A stretch of DNA of 32,203 nt. Source: Bacteroidales bacterium (GTDB lineage: Bacteria; Bacteroidota; Bacteroidia; Bacteroidales; F082). How positions within the stretch are numbered: the stretch's first letter is position 1; every line of letters starts with the position of its first letter. The translations under genes and the position numbers were made by a program. This document shows positions 172 through 6,531 of the stretch, piece by piece. The notes under the pieces were generated by a model, which ran no database searches, had not been told where the DNA came from, and saw nothing but the letters and a program-made list of their open reading frames with translations. Location of the stretch: NCBI GenBank assembly GCA_015488735.1, contig WFNG01000059.1, positions 1 through 32,203 on the forward strand. The letters are read 5' to 3'.

Positions 172-1275
172 TTATTCCTCCAACCGAACACTAAATCGTT
201 TTATACTCATTCCTACAAAGACGACAGTCATACCAAGAATAATCAGTGTTTCTTTCCAGAAGTAGGTAATGCCAATCCCTTTCAGCATGATATTTTTAAT
301 GATAATGATAAACCATTTCCCGGGCATAATATCACTCAGGATTTGTAAAACAACAGGCATATTTTCGATGGGGAAAATAAATCCGGATAACAAGATTGTT
401 GGCAACAGCAGGCCAAACATGGAAAGCATCATGGCTTGCTGCTGGGTTTTGCTAACCGTTGAAATAAGAATACCCAGCGAAAGCGACATAATAAGGAAAA
501 GCAGACTTTCGCCCAGCAACAGGGGAACACTGCCACGTATGGGCATTCCGAAAACAAACTGAGACAAAAGCAAAATAATAATCAGGTTGATAAAAGACAA
601 CACCACATAAGGAATAACTTTTCCAATAATAATAATTCCCGGTTTAATAGGTGAAACCAACAGCGCTTCCATGGTTCCCAACTCCTTTTCGCGAACAATG
701 GTAATGGAAGTCATCATGGCGGATACCAGCATAAGGATAACGGTAATAATGCCGGGAACAAACATAAAAACACTTTTTAATTGCTGGTTGTAAAGCATGG
801 TACTTTGAACATCGACCCGTATTGGTATTTTCCCTTCTTCTAACAGGTTGTGAAACAAATACGTATCGATGATCCCCTTGGTATAAGAGTTTAAAATATT
901 AGCTGTATTGGGGTTGGAGGCATCCAAAATCAGCTGTACATGAGCTTTTCCTTCGGTTGTCATTTTTTTTGCAAAATCTTTTTCAAAAACCACCACCTCT
1001 TTTATTTCGCCTTTGCGAAATGCAGGTTTAATCTGCTTATCCGATTTCAGGTAGCTATCGAGGATAAAATAGTGTGATGACAGTAGTTTACGGGTAATTT
1101 CGCGGGTTACCACGTCTTTAGAATGGTCGAGGATGGCAATATGGGCATTGTTTATGTCGTTGGTGATGGCAAACCCGAAAAGCATAATCTGCGCCAGTGG
1201 CATCCCAAAAAGGATGAGCATGGTGCGGTAGTCGCGAAATATGTACAGAAACTCTTTTTTAATAAATGCCCACAT
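172..1275 (-). CDS. ABC-2 type permease (YbhS/YhhJ-like) of exporter
   Basis: Inner-membrane subunit of an ABC exporter, 367 residues, the usual length for this family. A first membrane helix (about residues 19-37) follows the amphipathic KEFLYIFRD segment. A soluble domain of about 130 residues, expected in the periplasm, comes next. The rest is hydrophobic: a helix at about 168-194, the typical ABC-2 coupling sequence VREKELGTMEALLVSP, then further helices to the C-terminus. In E. coli, YbhS and YbhR work with the ATPase YbhF and adaptor YbhG to export cationic dyes and some antibiotics; the substrate here cannot be read from the sequence. The gene lies 79 bp after the second ATPase, with a stem-loop in the gap, and 19 bp before another permease. 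The ATG start is well supported by homology of the N-terminus. Confidence 0.92.
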   Translation of the reverse strand: MWAFIKKEFLYIFRDYRTMLILFGMPLAQIMLFGFAITNDINNAHIAILDHSKDVVTREITRKLLSSHYFILDSYLKSDKQIKPAFRKGEIKEVVVFEKDFAKKMTTEGKAHVQLILDASNPNTANILNSYTKGIIDTYLFHNLLEEGKIPIRVDVQSTMLYNQQLKSVFMFVPGIITVILMLVSAMMTSITIVREKELGTMEALLVSPIKPGIIIIGKVIPYVVLSFINLIIILLLSQFVFGMPIRGSVPLLLGESLLFLIMSLSLGILISTVSKTQQQAMMLSMFGLLLPTILLSGFIFPIENMPVVLQILSDIMPGKWFIIIIKNIMLKGIGITYFWKETLIILGMTVVFVGMSIKRFSVRLEE

Positions 1276-1354: not shown

Positions 1355-2095
1355 TTATTCTACGTTTCTGGCAATTTTCAGAAAAACGTCATTCATATTG
1401 TCTGTCTGATAGTTCTTTTTCAAATCACGGGGACGTCCTAAAGCCTTTATCTCTCCTTCCGACATAATAGACACCCGCTCGCAATATTCTGCTTCGTCCA
1501 TATAGTGCGTGGTAACGAAAACCGTGATTCCGTTGGCGGAAGCCTCGTAAATCATTTCCCAAAACTGTCGCCGGGTAATGGGGTCAACGCCGCCGGTAGG
1601 TTCATCCAGAAATATTATATCGGGTTTGTGTATGCTTGCCACTGAAAAGGCAAGTTTTTGTTTCCATCCCAGTGGAATATTTTTCAATAGCATATTTTCA
1701 TAGCTGCGCATATTCAGCTTGTCAAGGAAAAACAATGTTCTGTTGCGGATTTCTTTGCTGCTCAGGCCATAAACGCCACCGTAAAAACGAAAGTTCTCTT
1801 TTACGGTCATGTCGTTGTAGAGAGAGAAAAACTGGCTCATGTAGCCAATACGCTTTTTCACTGTTTCCGGATTTTTATTCACATTTACACCGGCAACCAC
1901 AACTGTTCCCGAAGTTGGATTTGACAAACCGCAAAGAATTTTAATAGCGGTGGTTTTTCCAGCGCCATTGGCACCAAGAAAACCGAAGATCTCCCCTTTG
2001 TAAACATCAAAAGTAAGATGTTTGTTGGCTTCGAAGCTGCCAAATTTTTTCACAAGGTCGTGTACCTCTATTATTTTTTCTCTGCTGTCGTTCAT
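1355..2095 (-). CDS. ABC transporter ATPase, second half of a split YbhF-like pair
   Basis: Cytoplasmic ATPase of the exporter, 246 residues, one nucleotide-binding domain. Visible motifs: Walker A GANGAGKTT (41-49), Q-loop Gln88 (YMSQ), Walker B IIFLDEP with catalytic Glu165, and the switch histidine His197 (TTHYMDEAE). The ABC signature is not LSGGQ but PLGWK (141-145); the same LPLGWKQ form is, from memory, usual in the C-terminal half of YbhF-type ATPases, so this is a family trait and not damage. The start codon overlaps the stop of the upstream ATPase gene by 4 bp (ATGA), a sign of translational coupling and of heterodimer assembly. In E. coli YbhF both domains are in one chain. Confidence 0.93.
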   Translation of the reverse strand: MNDSREKIIEVHDLVKKFGSFEANKHLTFDVYKGEIFGFLGANGAGKTTAIKILCGLSNPTSGTVVVAGVNVNKNPETVKKRIGYMSQFFSLYNDMTVKENFRFYGGVYGLSSKEIRNRTLFFLDKLNMRSYENMLLKNIPLGWKQKLAFSVASIHKPDIIFLDEPTGGVDPITRRQFWEMIYEASANGITVFVTTHYMDEAEYCERVSIMSEGEIKALGRPRDLKKNYQTDNMNDVFLKIARNVE

Positions 2096-3018
2096 GAGGC
2101 GTTTGTGTTATTCATTAATGCCAGAAAACAATCTTCTATCACAGGTTTTATCTGTTTCACGGTGATTTCGCGATAACCTTTTCCGGAGAGGTAGGCCGTA
2201 ATATTCTCCTTTGTTTTCTGTGTTCCTGCGTGGCTTACCAAATGAATATTTTCGCCAAACCGGTAGGCTTGTGTTTTTTTTTCAAAGGCAGCAAGATTAT
2301 TCAGTAAAGTGTACATATTCTCTGTCTTAACGGCAAATAGGTTTCCCTCAAAATCATCAATAATGTGCTGCGGGGTATTCAGGGAAAGTAGTTTTCCTGA
2401 TTGCATGAGGGCAACACGGTCGCACAGTGCCGCCTCATCCATGTAGGGAGTAGAGACCAAAATAGTGATATCCTTTTTCTGCATTTTTTTCAATAATTCC
2501 CAGAACTCTTTACGGGATACGGCATCTACACCTGTGGTGGGTTCGTCCAGTACCAGCAGCCGTGGTTTGTGAATCAGCGCACAGGAAAGTGCCAGTTTCT
2601 GTTTCATTCCTCCTGACAAAGCACCTGCCCGCCTGTTTTTAAATGGCGCAATCTGTTCGTAAACATCTTTAATAAGATCGTAGTTTTCTTTAATAGTTGT
2701 ACCGAAAAGTTTGGCATAAAATTCCAGATTTTCCTGAACGGTGAGGTCCATGTACAAAGAAAAACGTCCGGGCATGTAGCCTGTTATTTTTCTGATTTCT
2801 TTATAATTGTTCACCACATCCCATTGGTTAATATGCACTGTTCCGCTATCGGCAAGAATCAGGCTGGTCAGAATCCGGAAGAGCGTAGTTTTGCCCGCAC
2901 CGTCAGGGCCGATAAAGCCGAAAAGCTCGTTAGGCTGAATATTAAGGCTTATATCTTTCAGCGCTTCAGCCTTTTCAAAGGTTTTAACCAGATTTTTTAT
3001 GTTTATTGTTACGGACAT
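2092..3018 (-). CDS. ABC transporter ATPase, first half of a split YbhF-like pair
   Basis: Cytoplasmic ATPase, 308 residues: a nucleotide-binding domain of about 215 residues followed by a C-terminal extension of about 90. Walker A is GPDGAGKTT (37-45), the signature is a good LSGGM (134-138) and Walker B is LLVLDEP with Glu159. Two conserved catalytic positions are changed: the Q-loop Gln is Gly84 (YMPGRFSLY) and the switch His is Pro191 (STPYMDEA). With the partner ATPase, which has these residues but a poor signature, this predicts one normal and one degenerate ATP site. It begins the inner-membrane part of the operon, 106 bp after the DUF2147 gene, and has a clear AGGAG ribosome-binding site, rare in this window. 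Confidence 0.93.
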   Translation of the reverse strand: MSVTINIKNLVKTFEKAEALKDISLNIQPNELFGFIGPDGAGKTTLFRILTSLILADSGTVHINQWDVVNNYKEIRKITGYMPGRFSLYMDLTVQENLEFYAKLFGTTIKENYDLIKDVYEQIAPFKNRRAGALSGGMKQKLALSCALIHKPRLLVLDEPTTGVDAVSRKEFWELLKKMQKKDITILVSTPYMDEAALCDRVALMQSGKLLSLNTPQHIIDDFEGNLFAVKTENMYTLLNNLAAFEKKTQAYRFGENIHLVSHAGTQKTKENITAYLSGKGYREITVKQIKPVIEDCFLALMNNTNAS

Positions 3019-3124: not shown

Positions 3125-3595
3125 TTACTTTTTAACAACGCGCGTCCAGTAAACCGTTCTTCCCAACAGACTTAATCCGATATAACCACGAATTTTAAGG
3201 CGGTTTTTATTCTTTTCATTTGGAAATTTCATATAGCAACTGTAGGTCTTTCCCTTTTTGGGGTCATAAATAGTTCCATCTTCCCATTCATTATCACCAT
3301 CAAAAACAAAGTTTTCCAACAATTTCATTCCCATTACAGGTCTGTTGCGCAAGGCAGGATTTTCGTTTTTATCATCTACTTTGGGCTTACCCGTAATGCT
3401 GTCAATAGGGGTTTCCAGCCAAATTATTTTTCCAAAATACTTATCCCCATCTTTGTAAATCTGCACATGAGAGTCTTTGTCCTGTGTAAGCCAAACACCA
3501 ACAATATCGTTGGCTTTCACATCCTGAGCCTGAACATTTGTAAACGGGGTTATTAATAAACCCAACAGCACAATTGCAATACTTGAAATTTTCAT
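3125..3595 (-). CDS. secreted DUF2147 family protein
   Basis: A small exported protein of about 156 residues. It has a signal peptide (MKISSIAIVLLGLLITPF, with cleavage expected near NVQA/QD) and then the DUF2147 fold: DIVGVWLTQDKDSHVQIY, KYFGKIIWLETP, PVMGMKLLENF, WEDGTIYDPKKGKTYSC and LKIRGYIGLSLLGRTVYWTR are typical of that family. DUF2147 proteins are predicted periplasmic or outer-membrane-associated; their biochemical role is unknown. The gene lies between the adaptor and the ATPase genes on the same strand, so it may be an accessory of the exporter or simply co-expressed. An upstream in-frame ATG at 3637 would add 14 residues; I prefer 3595 because it gives a standard signal peptide and leaves the palindromes at 3615-3645 outside the gene, but either is possible. 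Confidence 0.85.
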   Translation of the reverse strand: MKISSIAIVLLGLLITPFTNVQAQDVKANDIVGVWLTQDKDSHVQIYKDGDKYFGKIIWLETPIDSITGKPKVDDKNENPALRNRPVMGMKLLENFVFDGDNEWEDGTIYDPKKGKTYSCYMKFPNEKNKNRLKIRGYIGLSLLGRTVYWTRVVKK

Positions 3596-3614
3596 CGCTA
3601 ATAATTTTTTAATG

Positions 3615-3645
3615 AATAAATATTTATTTCGAATCATCGTGATTC
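3615..3645. promoter_or_regulatory. two adjacent palindromes ahead of the DUF2147 gene
   Basis: AATAAATATTTATT (3615-3628) is a perfect 14-bp palindrome. Two bases on, GAATCA-TCG-TGATTC (3631-3645) is a perfect 6-bp inverted repeat with a 3-base spacer. They lie in the 95-bp gap between the adaptor gene and the preferred DUF2147 start. Candidate operator or RNA fold; AT-richness means the first could be chance. Confidence 0.35.
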
Positions 3646-3690: not shown

Positions 3691-4620
3691 TTAATTACTT
3701 TGGTGTGAGGCAATTCTGAATTCGCCCGGCATGCCTATTTTTAAGGCTCCATTGGCATTGGAAACTTTTATTTTTACTGCATATACCAGGTCAACGCGTT
3801 CCTGTTTGGTCTGGATAGTTTTGGGTGTAAATTCTGCTTGCGACGATATCCACAAAACTGTTCCATTTACCTCGTTATCAGCGGTTTTGTTTTTGTCGTA
3901 ATAGACGTTCACCTTTTGTCCGATTTTGATATGGCTGAGCTGACTTCCGCTAATAAATGCCCGGAGTTCCAATGTTTTAAGATTGGCGATTTTGTATAAC
4001 GGTTTGCCGGGAGTTGCCAGCTCTCCTTTTTCGGCATATTTTACCAAAACGGTACCTTCCACAGGATTTGTAATTAAACTTTGACGGATACTTTCGTTTA
4101 CCTGTGCAATTTGAGCATTAATACTCTGCAGCTCTGTATAAACATTATTTTTCTGGGTTTGAATGGCTTTGATTTGTTTCTTGTTTAAAGCCACTAACCC
4201 GTTAATGTCGTCCAGTTGCTTTTGTGTGGCCGCCTTGCTGCGAAAAAGATTCTGAACTCGCCGCTGGTTAATTTCGTTAATTTTTAACTGCTGTTGTTGT
4301 ACGGCAATGGAAGCATGGATATTGTCTAACCTGGAAGCTACAACTTTCTTTTGATTTTGCAATACCGCTTTCTTCAGGTTTAGCTGAGTTGTATCTACCA
4401 GCCCCACAACCTGGCCGGCTTTTATCCGGTTTCCCTGCTCCACGTTAAATTGCAATAATTGGCCCATGGTTTGCGATGAGACGATCACCTCGGCATGGGC
4501 ATCAAAGTTTCCGTAACCGTCCGAAAGCGTTCCCTGATTTGAACAGGAAGACAAAAGAGCTACGGCCAATCCGGCCAGGATGAACAAGCTGTTTCTTTTT
4601 ATAATTTTCATATTTTTCAT
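3691..4620 (-). CDS. HlyD-family membrane-fusion lipoprotein (YbhG-like adaptor)
   Basis: Periplasmic adaptor that links the inner-membrane ABC transporter to the TolC channel, 309 residues. The N-terminus is a lipoprotein signal with lipobox LSSC (Cys26). A biotinyl-lipoyl half-motif (VIVSSQTMGQLLQFNVEQGN, then AGQVVGLVDT) is followed by a long Gln/Lys-rich coiled-coil hairpin at about residues 75-185. The second lipoyl half (ITNPVEGTVLVKYAEKGELA, then GKPLYKIANL) and a beta-barrel domain (LELRAFISGSQLSHIKIGQK) follow. This order is standard for HlyD/YbhG. It starts 3 bp after the stop of the TolC-type gene and so is cotranscribed with it. ATG at 4611 (Met4) is an equally possible start. Confidence 0.93.
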   Translation of the reverse strand: MKNMKIIKRNSLFILAGLAVALLSSCSNQGTLSDGYGNFDAHAEVIVSSQTMGQLLQFNVEQGNRIKAGQVVGLVDTTQLNLKKAVLQNQKKVVASRLDNIHASIAVQQQQLKINEINQRRVQNLFRSKAATQKQLDDINGLVALNKKQIKAIQTQKNNVYTELQSINAQIAQVNESIRQSLITNPVEGTVLVKYAEKGELATPGKPLYKIANLKTLELRAFISGSQLSHIKIGQKVNVYYDKNKTADNEVNGTVLWISSQAEFTPKTIQTKQERVDLVYAVKIKVSNANGALKIGMPGEFRIASHQSN

Positions 4621-4623
4621 TTT

Positions 4624-5904
4624 TTATAAATTTCCGATGGCTGTTAAATACTGATATTTGGCAAACAGGAGCTGAAGTTTATGTGCCTGCATGGTTAGTT
4701 GTGCTTTTACTTCTTTGTTAAGCTCAATCAAATAGGAAGTGGTGGTGATGGTTCCGTTTTTAAGCTTGTTGTTGGCTGCATCTACCACATTTTTTTGTAA
4801 CACAAGAATGTCTTTATCTGTTTTAATCAGCTTTTCAAATTTCTGAATGCCTGATAGTTGTTTTTCCAGGCTTGCACGCAGTGACTGGTTAAAAGTTTCC
4901 TGTTCGGTTTGAATAATGTCAGATTGAATGTTTAGGATTTGCTTTTCGTGTTTTACGCGGTTCCAGTCGAAAATATTCCAGTGAAGTCTTATTCCGGCCA
5001 TATAATAAGTGTCGAAATTATTGTTTAGCATATCATATCCGGGACGGCCATATCCGGCCTGGCCGAAAATTTTAAAAACCGGCATGCGTTTTACGGTGGT
5101 CATTTTTTCCAGTGCCGACAGTTTTGATTTTTGCAGCCCCAGCATTTTATATTCCGGACGGTTGTTAACGAAAGTATAGGCTGTTATGTTTGCTTTGGGT
5201 ATTAGCAGTTCTTTTGCCGAGGAGATGCTTAAATGGGTGAGCTGGTTCATGGAGCCGATAAGCCCCTTTTGATCCTCCGATTTTTCAATAATTTGTTGTT
5301 CGGCTATCTTCTTGTTTACCTTTAATGCATCCACGTCCGATTGTAGTAAAATCCCGTTACGGAGTGCTGCTTCCGCGTCTTTTATACGGGCATCCAAATC
5401 GTTCACCAGTACATGTAACGCATTCAAATTGGCTTGCAGAAAAAGAATATTGAAATAAAGGATGTTTACCTGTTTTTTTAACTCGAATGTTTTAATTTTT
5501 ACCTGCTGGTCAGAGATTTTATAATCTGCCGTTTGTACTTCTTTCTGATTTTTGGTCAGGCCGCCATCCCAAATGAGCTGATCCAAATCGAAATTGATTT
5601 TATACCAGTCTTTGCTTAAGACCGGCATGTTAAAATTGGGGATGGGCGGGGCGGGGACTTTGGTTACATCCGACTGGTACGAAGCTTGTCCGTTGAGGTT
5701 CAGCTGTGGCAGATAATTCTTTTTTATGTTGTTTTCCTCCAGCGTGTACTTGCTTTGGTTTAGCTGCAACTGTTTTTGTGTGGGGAAATTTTTCACTGCT
5801 TCCTGAAGACACTGTTGCAGGGAAAACTTTTGCTGTTTTTCCTGGGCGGAGAGAATAGCCGGGAGAAACAGAATGAGGCTGATATATAAAATGGTCTTGT
5901 TCAT
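4624..5904 (-). CDS. TolC-family outer-membrane efflux channel
   Basis: 426 residues with a signal peptide (MNKTILYISLILFLPAILSA, cleavage before QEKQ). Two outer-membrane efflux repeats of long Gln/Lys/Asn-rich helices are visible. The first starts at FSLQQCLQEAVKNFPT and includes LNLNGQASYQSD; the second includes FKIFGQAGYGRPGYDM and MAGIRLHWNIFDWNR, typical strand segments of TolC barrels. It should form the trimeric outer-membrane exit duct for the ABC exporter encoded downstream. It lies 12 bp after the TetR-type gene and 3 bp before the adaptor gene, so one transcript covers regulator, channel and adaptor. Confidence 0.93.
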   Translation of the reverse strand: MNKTILYISLILFLPAILSAQEKQQKFSLQQCLQEAVKNFPTQKQLQLNQSKYTLEENNIKKNYLPQLNLNGQASYQSDVTKVPAPPIPNFNMPVLSKDWYKINFDLDQLIWDGGLTKNQKEVQTADYKISDQQVKIKTFELKKQVNILYFNILFLQANLNALHVLVNDLDARIKDAEAALRNGILLQSDVDALKVNKKIAEQQIIEKSEDQKGLIGSMNQLTHLSISSAKELLIPKANITAYTFVNNRPEYKMLGLQKSKLSALEKMTTVKRMPVFKIFGQAGYGRPGYDMLNNNFDTYYMAGIRLHWNIFDWNRVKHEKQILNIQSDIIQTEQETFNQSLRASLEKQLSGIQKFEKLIKTDKDILVLQKNVVDAANNKLKNGTITTTSYLIELNKEVKAQLTMQAHKLQLLFAKYQYLTAIGNL

Positions 5905-5916
5905 TTTGGGAGGTTT

Positions 5917-6531
5917 TTATGGCTGTAAAGATTTTTTTAAAAAAGAAATGATATGCTGTTTTCGTTCATACAGAAAATTTTCGATACCGGCCGGATGTTC
6001 GTCAAAGAATACTTTTTCCAGTAACGGACGGCCAATATAGGGAAACACGCACATTCCAAGCATATCGATAAGCAAATGCTCCGGAGCGATATTACATATT
6101 TTCTTTTGTGCAATATTTTTTTCCATCATGTGTTTATATCCCGGAACATTCAATTTAATTTTTTCGGTAAACTGGCCTGTTTTTTCCGGGTGGCTGTTGA
6201 TTTCATTAAAAATGAAATTAGGAATAAACGGGTTGCTTTGCAGGGTGGTGAGGTAGTTGTCCACAAACGTTTCAATAAAAACAAAAACATCGCCATCTTC
6301 GAGAATACTTTCGTTAATGACATCAAATACGCTACTCAAAGCATTTTCAAATATGTGGTTAAATAATTTCTCTTTGCTCCGAAAATAGTAATGCAGCAGC
6401 GCTTTGTTGATGCCGGCTTCGTTGGCAATCTCCTGCATGCGGGCCCCTTCGAGACCTTTTCTGATAAAAACGGTTCGTGCTGCTTCGAGAATCTGCTGCT
6501 CTGTATTGTGTTTTGTATTTTGCTTATCCAT
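5917..6531 (-). CDS. TetR/AcrR-family transcriptional regulator
   Basis: DNA-binding repressor of 204 residues. The N-terminal TetR helix-turn-helix is clear: QQILEAARTVFIRKG, then the recognition part ARMQEIANEAGINKALLHYY (residues 30-49), followed by FRSKEKLF. The C-terminal ligand domain is not assignable by eye. As first gene of the exporter operon its likely role is to repress the operon and release on binding an exported compound, as CecR does for ybhGFSR in E. coli. The region before its ATG has a palindrome and a consensus -7 box, consistent with autoregulation. It is transcribed away from the DUF3098 gene. Confidence 0.93.
   Translation of the reverse strand: MDKQNTKHNTEQQILEAARTVFIRKGLEGARMQEIANEAGINKALLHYYFRSKEKLFNHIFENALSSVFDVINESILEDGDVFVFIETFVDNYLTTLQSNPFIPNFIFNEINSHPEKTGQFTEKIKLNVPGYKHMMEKNIAQKKICNIAPEHLLIDMLGMCVFPYIGRPLLEKVFFDEHPAGIENFLYERKQHIISFLKKSLQP

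Follow-up and report, generated by a model that had tools for sequence, protein, structure and literature searches.

Two overlapping genes of a Bacteroidales bacterium probably encode the halves of an ATPase heterodimer with unequal ATP sites. One composite site, here called site 2, contains every canonical catalytic residue and would hydrolyse ATP; the other, site 1, has lost several of them and most likely holds ATP as a clamp, with very slow hydrolysis or none. The initial annotation had proposed such a division into one canonical and one degenerate site and it stands, as all of the losses line the site built from the Walker A, Q-loop and switch of the first chain (chain 1) and the signature of the second (chain 2). 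The asymmetry was also suspected to be a family property, and it is indeed common to the 184 pairs of chains compared, E. coli YbhF and RbbA among them. Judging by the residues concerned, it most likely represents a variant of the ABC exporters already known to have a degenerate site, an unusual one in that the catalytic Glu is retained.

The gene cluster and its two ATPases

The window, the whole stretch of 32,203 nucleotides that was analysed, is an entire contig, one of the 262 that make up the 2.88 Mb genome. The elements of a YbhF-type cluster are found together at one end of it (Table 1), with an HlyD-type adaptor, two nucleotide-binding domains (NBDs), two ABC-2 type permeases and a TetR-type gene nearby; the second permease is present as a fragment, whose likeness to the first was judged by eye only. 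The two ATPase genes would thus supply the heterodimer of a tripartite YbhF-type ABC-2 exporter, comprising a TetR regulator, TolC channel, HlyD adaptor, two ATPases and two permeases. Similar surroundings are found in those named loci of relatives that have full flanks (47 of 80), where HlyD matches occur in 47/47, TolC matches in 46/47 and two permeases in 46/47. A DUF2147 match is present in only three of these 47 (L114, L124 and L129), and on a Mucilaginibacter plasmid (L224) the slot is occupied by a glutathione peroxidase.

Table 1. Positions of the genes and residues discussed, in the numbering of the window
Feature	Position	Strand	Basis or remark
Probable N-terminal part of second permease, cut by contig end	1..164	-	open frame in reverse complement
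First ABC-2 type permease (ABC2_membrane_3)	172..1275	-	ORF list, domain search
Chain 2: ABC ATPase, 246 aa, NBD without comparable extension, altered signature	1355..2095	-	Pfam ABC_tran, 98.6 bits
Chain 1: ABC ATPase, 308 aa, NBD followed by a C-terminal extension (roughly residues 226-308)	2092..3018	-	Pfam ABC_tran, 97.4 bits; AlphaFold2 model; Foldseek
DUF2147 protein gene	3125..3637	-	slot between HlyD and ATPase genes
HlyD-type periplasmic adaptor	3691..4620	-	profile matches
TolC-type outer membrane channel	4624..5904	-	profile match
TetR-type regulator	5917..6531	-	profile match
Chain 1, Asp39 codon, Walker A GPDGAGKT	2902..2904	-	Asn in chain 2, in 5/5 single-ATPase relatives and in 7/7 outgroup ATPases
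Chain 1, Gly84 codon, Q-loop position	2767..2769	-	alignment
Chain 1, LSGGM signature (134-138), canonical, would serve the working site	2605..2619	-	sequence
Chain 1, Glu159 codon, catalytic Glu, kept	2542..2544	-	sequence
Chain 1, Pro191 codon, switch (H-loop) position	2446..2448	-	alignment
Chain 2, Asn43 codon, Walker A GANGAGKT	1967..1969	-	sequence
Chain 2, Gln88 codon, Q-loop	1832..1834	-	sequence
Chain 2, IPLGW (140-144) in place of LSGGQ signature	1664..1678	-	alignment
Chain 2, Glu165 codon, catalytic Glu	1601..1603	-	sequence
Chain 2, His197 codon, switch	1505..1507	-	sequence

The open reading frames were re-read, and Gly84, Pro191 and LSGGM (134-138) in chain 1, Gln88 and His197 in chain 2, and the catalytic Glu residues E159 and E165 are all where they had been placed; the reported 4-bp overlap of the genes is likewise present, at 2092-2095. 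The signature of chain 2 is altered as described, although the quoted PLGWK (141-145) lies one residue late, and it is IPLGW (140-144) that aligns with LSGGM. The earlier list of changes also omitted one, an Asp at residue 39 in place of the Walker A Asn. Chain 1 therefore bears three of the four changes at the degenerate site, and chain 2 contributes the altered signature.

The missing Gln and His of chain 1 are not displaced nearby, there being no Gln in residues 78-94 and no His in 183-200. In an AlphaFold2 model of chain 1, calculated from an alignment of the window protein with 24 relatives (mean pLDDT 91.1), residue 191 lies right behind strand 185-190 and residue 84 two residues past strand 79-82, so that both sit, in the predicted structure, where the switch and Q-loop are expected. 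Misalignment is ruled out by the alignment, the positions in this model and the relatives with a matching pattern. Nor is the absence of these residues a matter of chance, as both are missing in all 146 distinct pairs of the window's own clade.

The C-terminal extension is present in chain 1 only (2092-2343 in the window) and is covered in the fold match by 4yer and the ABCA chains. Chain 2 stops after its NBD (end at 1355-1420); both chains have open frames of roughly 300 aa or longer in a more distant Bacteroidota clade.

Conservation and nesting of the losses

The 184 pairs comprise 146 from the window's own (close) clade, 17 from the distant Bacteroidota clade and 21 of a third set. The phylum search covered 198 genomes, the window's own included, 115 of which held a chain 1 match at E up to 1e-45; a match of at least 47% identity was counted by eye in 75 other genomes, and 71 of the 75 were fetched. 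Named loci were the best 80 of at least 592 confirmed relatives in a contig scan seeded with LSGGMKQK and LDEP[TG][TV]GVD. Both chains were obtained from 78 of these, fused in none, and after removal of three duplicates and three loci without a full core pair, 74 remained, which together with the 71 and the window make up the close clade. As a consequence of the seed patterns, conservation of the chain-1 signature and Glu among the named loci is partly built in by the selection; in the 71 search-derived loci, which were not chosen by motif, both are kept in 71/71. The distant pairs were picked from weaker matches among those listed (36-45% identity to chain 1), and the third set consists of E. 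coli YbhF, RbbA and 19 plasmid-borne loci chosen for variety. Since relatives were chosen by their likeness to chain 1, the close clade is over-represented. One of its pairs (L171) stands in a record titled Desulfobulbaceae; this label is probably wrong, as the genomes drawn from the phylum concerned look identical to the set of the phylum search. Four further loci were read and kept outside the counts: L218 and L234, which resemble YbhF, L241, which resembles RbbA, and L224, which resembles the close clade.

Two changes are found throughout. Asp replaces the Walker A Asn in 183/183 readable chain-1 sequences (146 close, 17 distant, 20 of the third set), and the switch His is lost in 184/184, its replacements being Pro (142), Ala (2) and Ser (2) in the close clade, Pro in all 17 distant pairs, and Ser (7), Ala (10) and Pro (4) in the third set. 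The signature Ser of chain 2 is lost in 177 of the 184 pairs (close 146/146, distant 13/17, third set 18/21) and retained in seven. Loss of the Q-loop Gln is narrower, at 147/184: it affects 146/146 close pairs (Gly 141, Glu 4, Asp 1), 0/17 distant pairs and 1/21 of the third set, the single case being L231 of Bacteroides finegoldii, which itself belongs to the close clade. Chain 1 retains its catalytic Glu in 183/184 pairs, with Asp in L122 as the exception, and its Walker A Lys in 183/183 readable sequences. The Walker B motif of L122 (chain 1 from 4001) is LDDP, and no other of the 184 pairs has this replacement; the locus comes from a metagenome-assembled genome (MAG), and the change may be an error.

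Every loss counted lies in site 1. In site 2 the Lys, Gln, Glu and Asn of chain 2 are kept in 184/184 pairs, its His in 183/183 readable sequences and LSGG of chain 1 in 184/184. The residues, their conservation and their grouping into composite sites are evident from the alignments, as is the nesting of the losses, which is without exception: the pairs with Asp and without His (184, one Walker A being unreadable) include those that have lost Ser (177), which include those that have lost Gln (147), which in turn include the one that has lost Glu.

Relatives with a single NBD provide a reference. L238, L243, L245, L246 and L247 keep the Asn, Gln, signature Ser, Glu and His in 5/5 cases in the stretch read, and the annotation of three of the five lists one ATPase and one permease behind an HlyD gene, the records of the other two being unannotated there. 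These ATPases presumably act as homodimers, and would have stayed canonical because one chain forming both sites could not afford such losses.

A column scan of 62 chain-1 against 62 chain-2 cores found 11 columns that separate the chains at the cut-offs used. Three of these are canonical catalytic positions, namely residues 39 and 191 and residue 141 of chain 2, where the departure is Pro141, and all three line site 1. The canonical state at these positions is found in the single-ATPase relatives and the outgroup rows, respectively, as Asn in 5/5 and 7/7 (residue 39), His in 5/5 and 6/7 (residue 191) and Ser in 5/5 and 7/7 (chain-2 residue 141). The remaining eight include Phe21 of chain 2, Phe126 of chain 1 and the residue after the signature. 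Residue 84 is absent from the list, Gln being retained by the majority of chain-1 rows from other clades.

A tree was calculated after the columns of the Gln, the signature and the switch had been taken out, while that of Walker A stayed in. Both chains group with their counterpart halves of YbhF, and the chain-1 rows, including the first half of YbhF, form one clade (support 92/94); support is 99/98 for close chain 1 and 100/99 for close chain 2. The chain-2 rows do not form a single clade in the free tree, and forcing them together gave a slightly better fit (2.85 log units, p-AU 0.54). In the free tree the single-ATPase relatives join chain 2 of RbbA (76/75) and the outgroup branch has little support (58/33); a tree with chains 1 and 2 as one clade and the singles outside is not rejected (p-AU 0.45). 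A single-ATPase homodimer may have come first and been duplicated later, a plausible history that the tree, which gives no firm root for the singles and the two chains, does not prove. On this tree the fewest changes needed are one for Gln, one for His and six for the signature Ser, so that there is little independent evidence for the order of the losses. Loss of the Q-loop Gln is, by these sequences, an added step on one Bacteroidota branch.

A probable working and a probable degenerate site

The two chains are expected to pair head to tail. Site 2 would be formed by the Walker A of chain 2 with Asn43, Gln88, Glu165 and His197, together with LSGGM of chain 1, and would be hydrolytic. Site 1 would combine the Walker A of chain 1 and its Asp39, Gly84, Glu159 and Pro191 with IPLGW of chain 2. 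It retains the parts that bind ATP and Mg, these being the Walker A Lys and the Walker B Asp and Glu, but the elements for sensing the gamma-phosphate and closing the pocket appear to be gone. With Asp39 present and the His, partner Ser and Gln all lost, site 1 is expected to bind ATP with scarcely any hydrolysis. It may then hold ATP as a clamp, occupancy and rates being matters of inference, and one hydrolysis per cycle, at one site, would drive transport.

The significance of Asp39 is suggested by ABCA4, in which the Walker A Asn (N965, N1974) touches the gamma-phosphate and the opposing D-loop; its replacement by Asp severely reduces basal ATPase activity and abolishes stimulation by substrate, according to passages of PMC11405800. 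Chain 1 naturally carries the residue to which a disease-linked, inactivating change leads in human ABCA4.

It has to be considered whether Glu159, with Asp39 or other groups replacing the lost residues, could still support catalysis at site 1, such that both sites turn over. The near-universal retention of the Glu and of the Walker A Lys would fit this, and since loss of the Glu is described as the hallmark of a degenerate site elsewhere (excerpts of PMC7544095), its presence makes slow hydrolysis at site 1 possible; sites with Asp for Glu also seem still able to hydrolyse, although far more slowly than the transport cycle (parts of PMC7756269). The ABCA4 exchange nevertheless has its severe effect alone, and the close clade is in addition without Gln, His and partner Ser, and full turnover at both sites is regarded as unlikely. 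If site 1 is a clamp, its changes might be a selected state or simply the neutral decay of a dispensable site. The nested losses are as in stepwise decay, and six changes of the signature Ser are counted on the tree. Against this, the derived states are nearly invariant in the close clade (Gly84 in 141/146, Pro191 in 142/146, LPLG of chain 2 in 137/146) and Asp39 is found in every readable chain 1, which leaves neutral decay a minority reading, less improbable than turnover at both sites. Fast divergence of chain 1 was also considered as proof of decay and is weak evidence: the two cores diverge to a similar degree in the close clade (mean identity 0.666 and 0.672), chain 2 being the more similar in 1637 of 3000 sampled locus pairs, and each of the other two sets shows slightly stronger conservation of chain 2 (104/136 and 131/153 locus pairs, three loci left out).

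The degenerate-site reading also presupposes that the chains pair with one another. The overlap of 4 bp had been taken as a sign of obligate pairing; the overlap itself is there, but as evidence it is weak, as it is possible in only 27 of 145 close-clade relatives and 12 of 17 distant loci have the genes far apart. That the chains serve as separate homodimers might be argued from their separate genes and from these gaps. In the close clade the nearest chain-2 ATG lies -40 to +30 nt from the chain-1 stop in 123/145 relatives, but 36 to 554 nt after it in 22/145; in the distant clade (L081-L097) the genes adjoin in 5/17 loci and lie more than 1.3 kb apart within one cluster in 12/17, with a TolC-like match between them in seven and no match to the window's proteins in five. 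Yet both genes keep one order within about 0.6 kb in 145/145 close relatives and lie on one strand between the HlyD and permease matches in 17/17 distant loci, and the fusion of the NBDs in YbhF, RbbA and L231 supports pairing. A homodimer of chain 1 would have neither Asn nor Gln nor His in its two sites, and one of chain 2 would have no proper signature in either, and the homodimer reading, which is highly improbable, is rejected because each would miss essential elements twice over. Least credible of all is a misassembly, pseudogene or misalignment in one MAG. The window is a single contig of a much-divided assembly, but the same pattern recurs in 71 relatives fetched from other genomes and in a further 74 on named contigs, and the predicted structure places the residues as expected; the probability of an artefact is practically negligible.

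Taking site 1 as a degenerate clamp, it may be suggested, tentatively and with less confidence than the clamp itself, that the degenerate site of YbhF-type exporters loses its residues in a set sequence: first the Walker A Asn (replaced by Asp) and the switch His at the base of chain 1, then the signature Ser, then Gln on one Bacteroidota branch and finally Glu in one genome. Asp39 and Glu159 would then mark a selected, non-hydrolysing ATP clamp and not a worn-out site.

The fused locus L231 (3956-5446, on a B. finegoldii plasmid) carries both NBDs in one protein, annotated as a CDS of 1470 nt; it has Gly at the Q-loop and Pro at the switch and is apparently without the C-terminal extension of chain 1.

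Relation to known transporters

YbhFSR has been studied as an exporter of drugs and cations. Like the window, E. coli has an adaptor, two NBDs, two permeases and a regulator gene in one cluster (YbhFSR, YbhG and CecR), the CecR regulator being presumably of TetR type; the ybh stretch viewed has no TolC gene, whereas the window has one. YbhF shares the Walker A Asp, the lost switch His and the altered partner signature, all in one composite site, and differs in its fused NBDs, its retained Q-loop Gln and a Ser at the switch. The suggestion in the initial annotation that fused YbhF shows the same changes is therefore not sustained for the Gln: YbhF and RbbA lose the switch His and the partner Ser but keep this residue, as do 17/17 distant and 20/21 third-set pairs. 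Identity to YbhF is 35% for chain 1 and 45% for chain 2, and in place of the single polypeptide of YbhF the NBDs are split in the window and in 78/78 named loci with both chains. On the sequence evidence, the window system would resemble YbhF in its working without being a strict ortholog of it.

RbbA (YhiH) has the same polarity of its degenerate site, with Asp in Walker A, Ala at the switch and PLGIR in the second NBD. Unlike the window it combines the NBDs and a permease in one protein and keeps the Q-loop Gln, and the cut-off of the RbbA equivalog NF033858 (1050 bits) is not reached by chain 1 (221.5), chain 2 (270.8) or the permease (236.5).

Degenerate-site type I exporters such as TmrAB, MsRv1273c/72c, the ABCC proteins and CFTR likewise have one consensus and one degenerate site, with the changes spread over two NBDs; TM287/288 is another. 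In these exporters the catalytic Glu is typically replaced (PMC7544095, PMC7756269), in contrast to its retention here, where the permeases are of ABC-2 type; TmrB, for example, has D500 at this position (part of PMC8277102). As far as the relevant passages of PMC7756269 go, the degenerate site of full-length human ABC proteins is always NBS1, an altered NBD2 signature is common to all human degenerate sites, and Glu to Asp is the next most frequent change. The NBS1 polarity inferred for fused YbhF agrees with these human proteins. Of the features that define a degenerate site, the altered partner signature is found here (IPLGW, with Ser absent in most pairs) and replacement of the Glu is not (Glu159). 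Yeast Pdr5, whose active site consists of NBD2 and the C-loop of NBD1 in the excerpted text of PMC8421411, shows similarly strong asymmetry, but in its inactive site the catalytic Glu is replaced by Asn, and it is a single full-size eukaryotic protein.

The best sequence matches in the PDB are ABCA3, ABCA4, ABCA1 and ABCA7. A Foldseek search with the chain 1 model placed TM_1403 (4yer) at the top, followed by ABCA4, ABCA7 and NosDFYL, with 4yer and the ABCA chains matched over almost the whole length. No YbhF structure appears among the PDB matches listed (the best 60 of 270 and best 60 of 126 by sequence, and the best 50 by fold). The ABCA proteins are not models of the asymmetry: ABCA3, unlike the pair described here, has Asn, Gln and His in both NBDs in the alignments, and ABCA4 needs hydrolysis at both NBDs (passages of PMC11405800).

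In excerpts of the YbhF papers (PMC7190983, PMC9951867) the conserved motifs are said to be there, in the case of E. coli within each NBD region, and neither asymmetr- nor degenerate appears anywhere in PMC7190983. No remark on the asymmetry of YbhF was found in the portions of the open-licence PMC literature accessible, though one may exist elsewhere, and no mention of GPDGAGK was found in the open-licence PMC literature. Should one of the sites indeed be non-hydrolytic, the family would couple energy to transport through the other alone, and mutants or inhibitors would have to be aimed at the C-terminal half of YbhF or at chain 2. The family offers living stages in the decay of a site, with the single-ATPase relatives as intact controls, and the purpose of a degenerate ATP site becomes testable with a protein of E. 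coli K-12.

Some loci are themselves broken. In L225 and L227, from Peptoclostridium and Octadecabacter plasmids, the ATPase genes are interrupted by frame changes. Scans of viral contigs yielded one truncated YbhF, on the viral-collection contig L234; this YbhF-like gene (1-1563) ends before the second switch and diverges from YbhF right after the D-loop of NBD2, possibly marking a phage insertion in ybhF.
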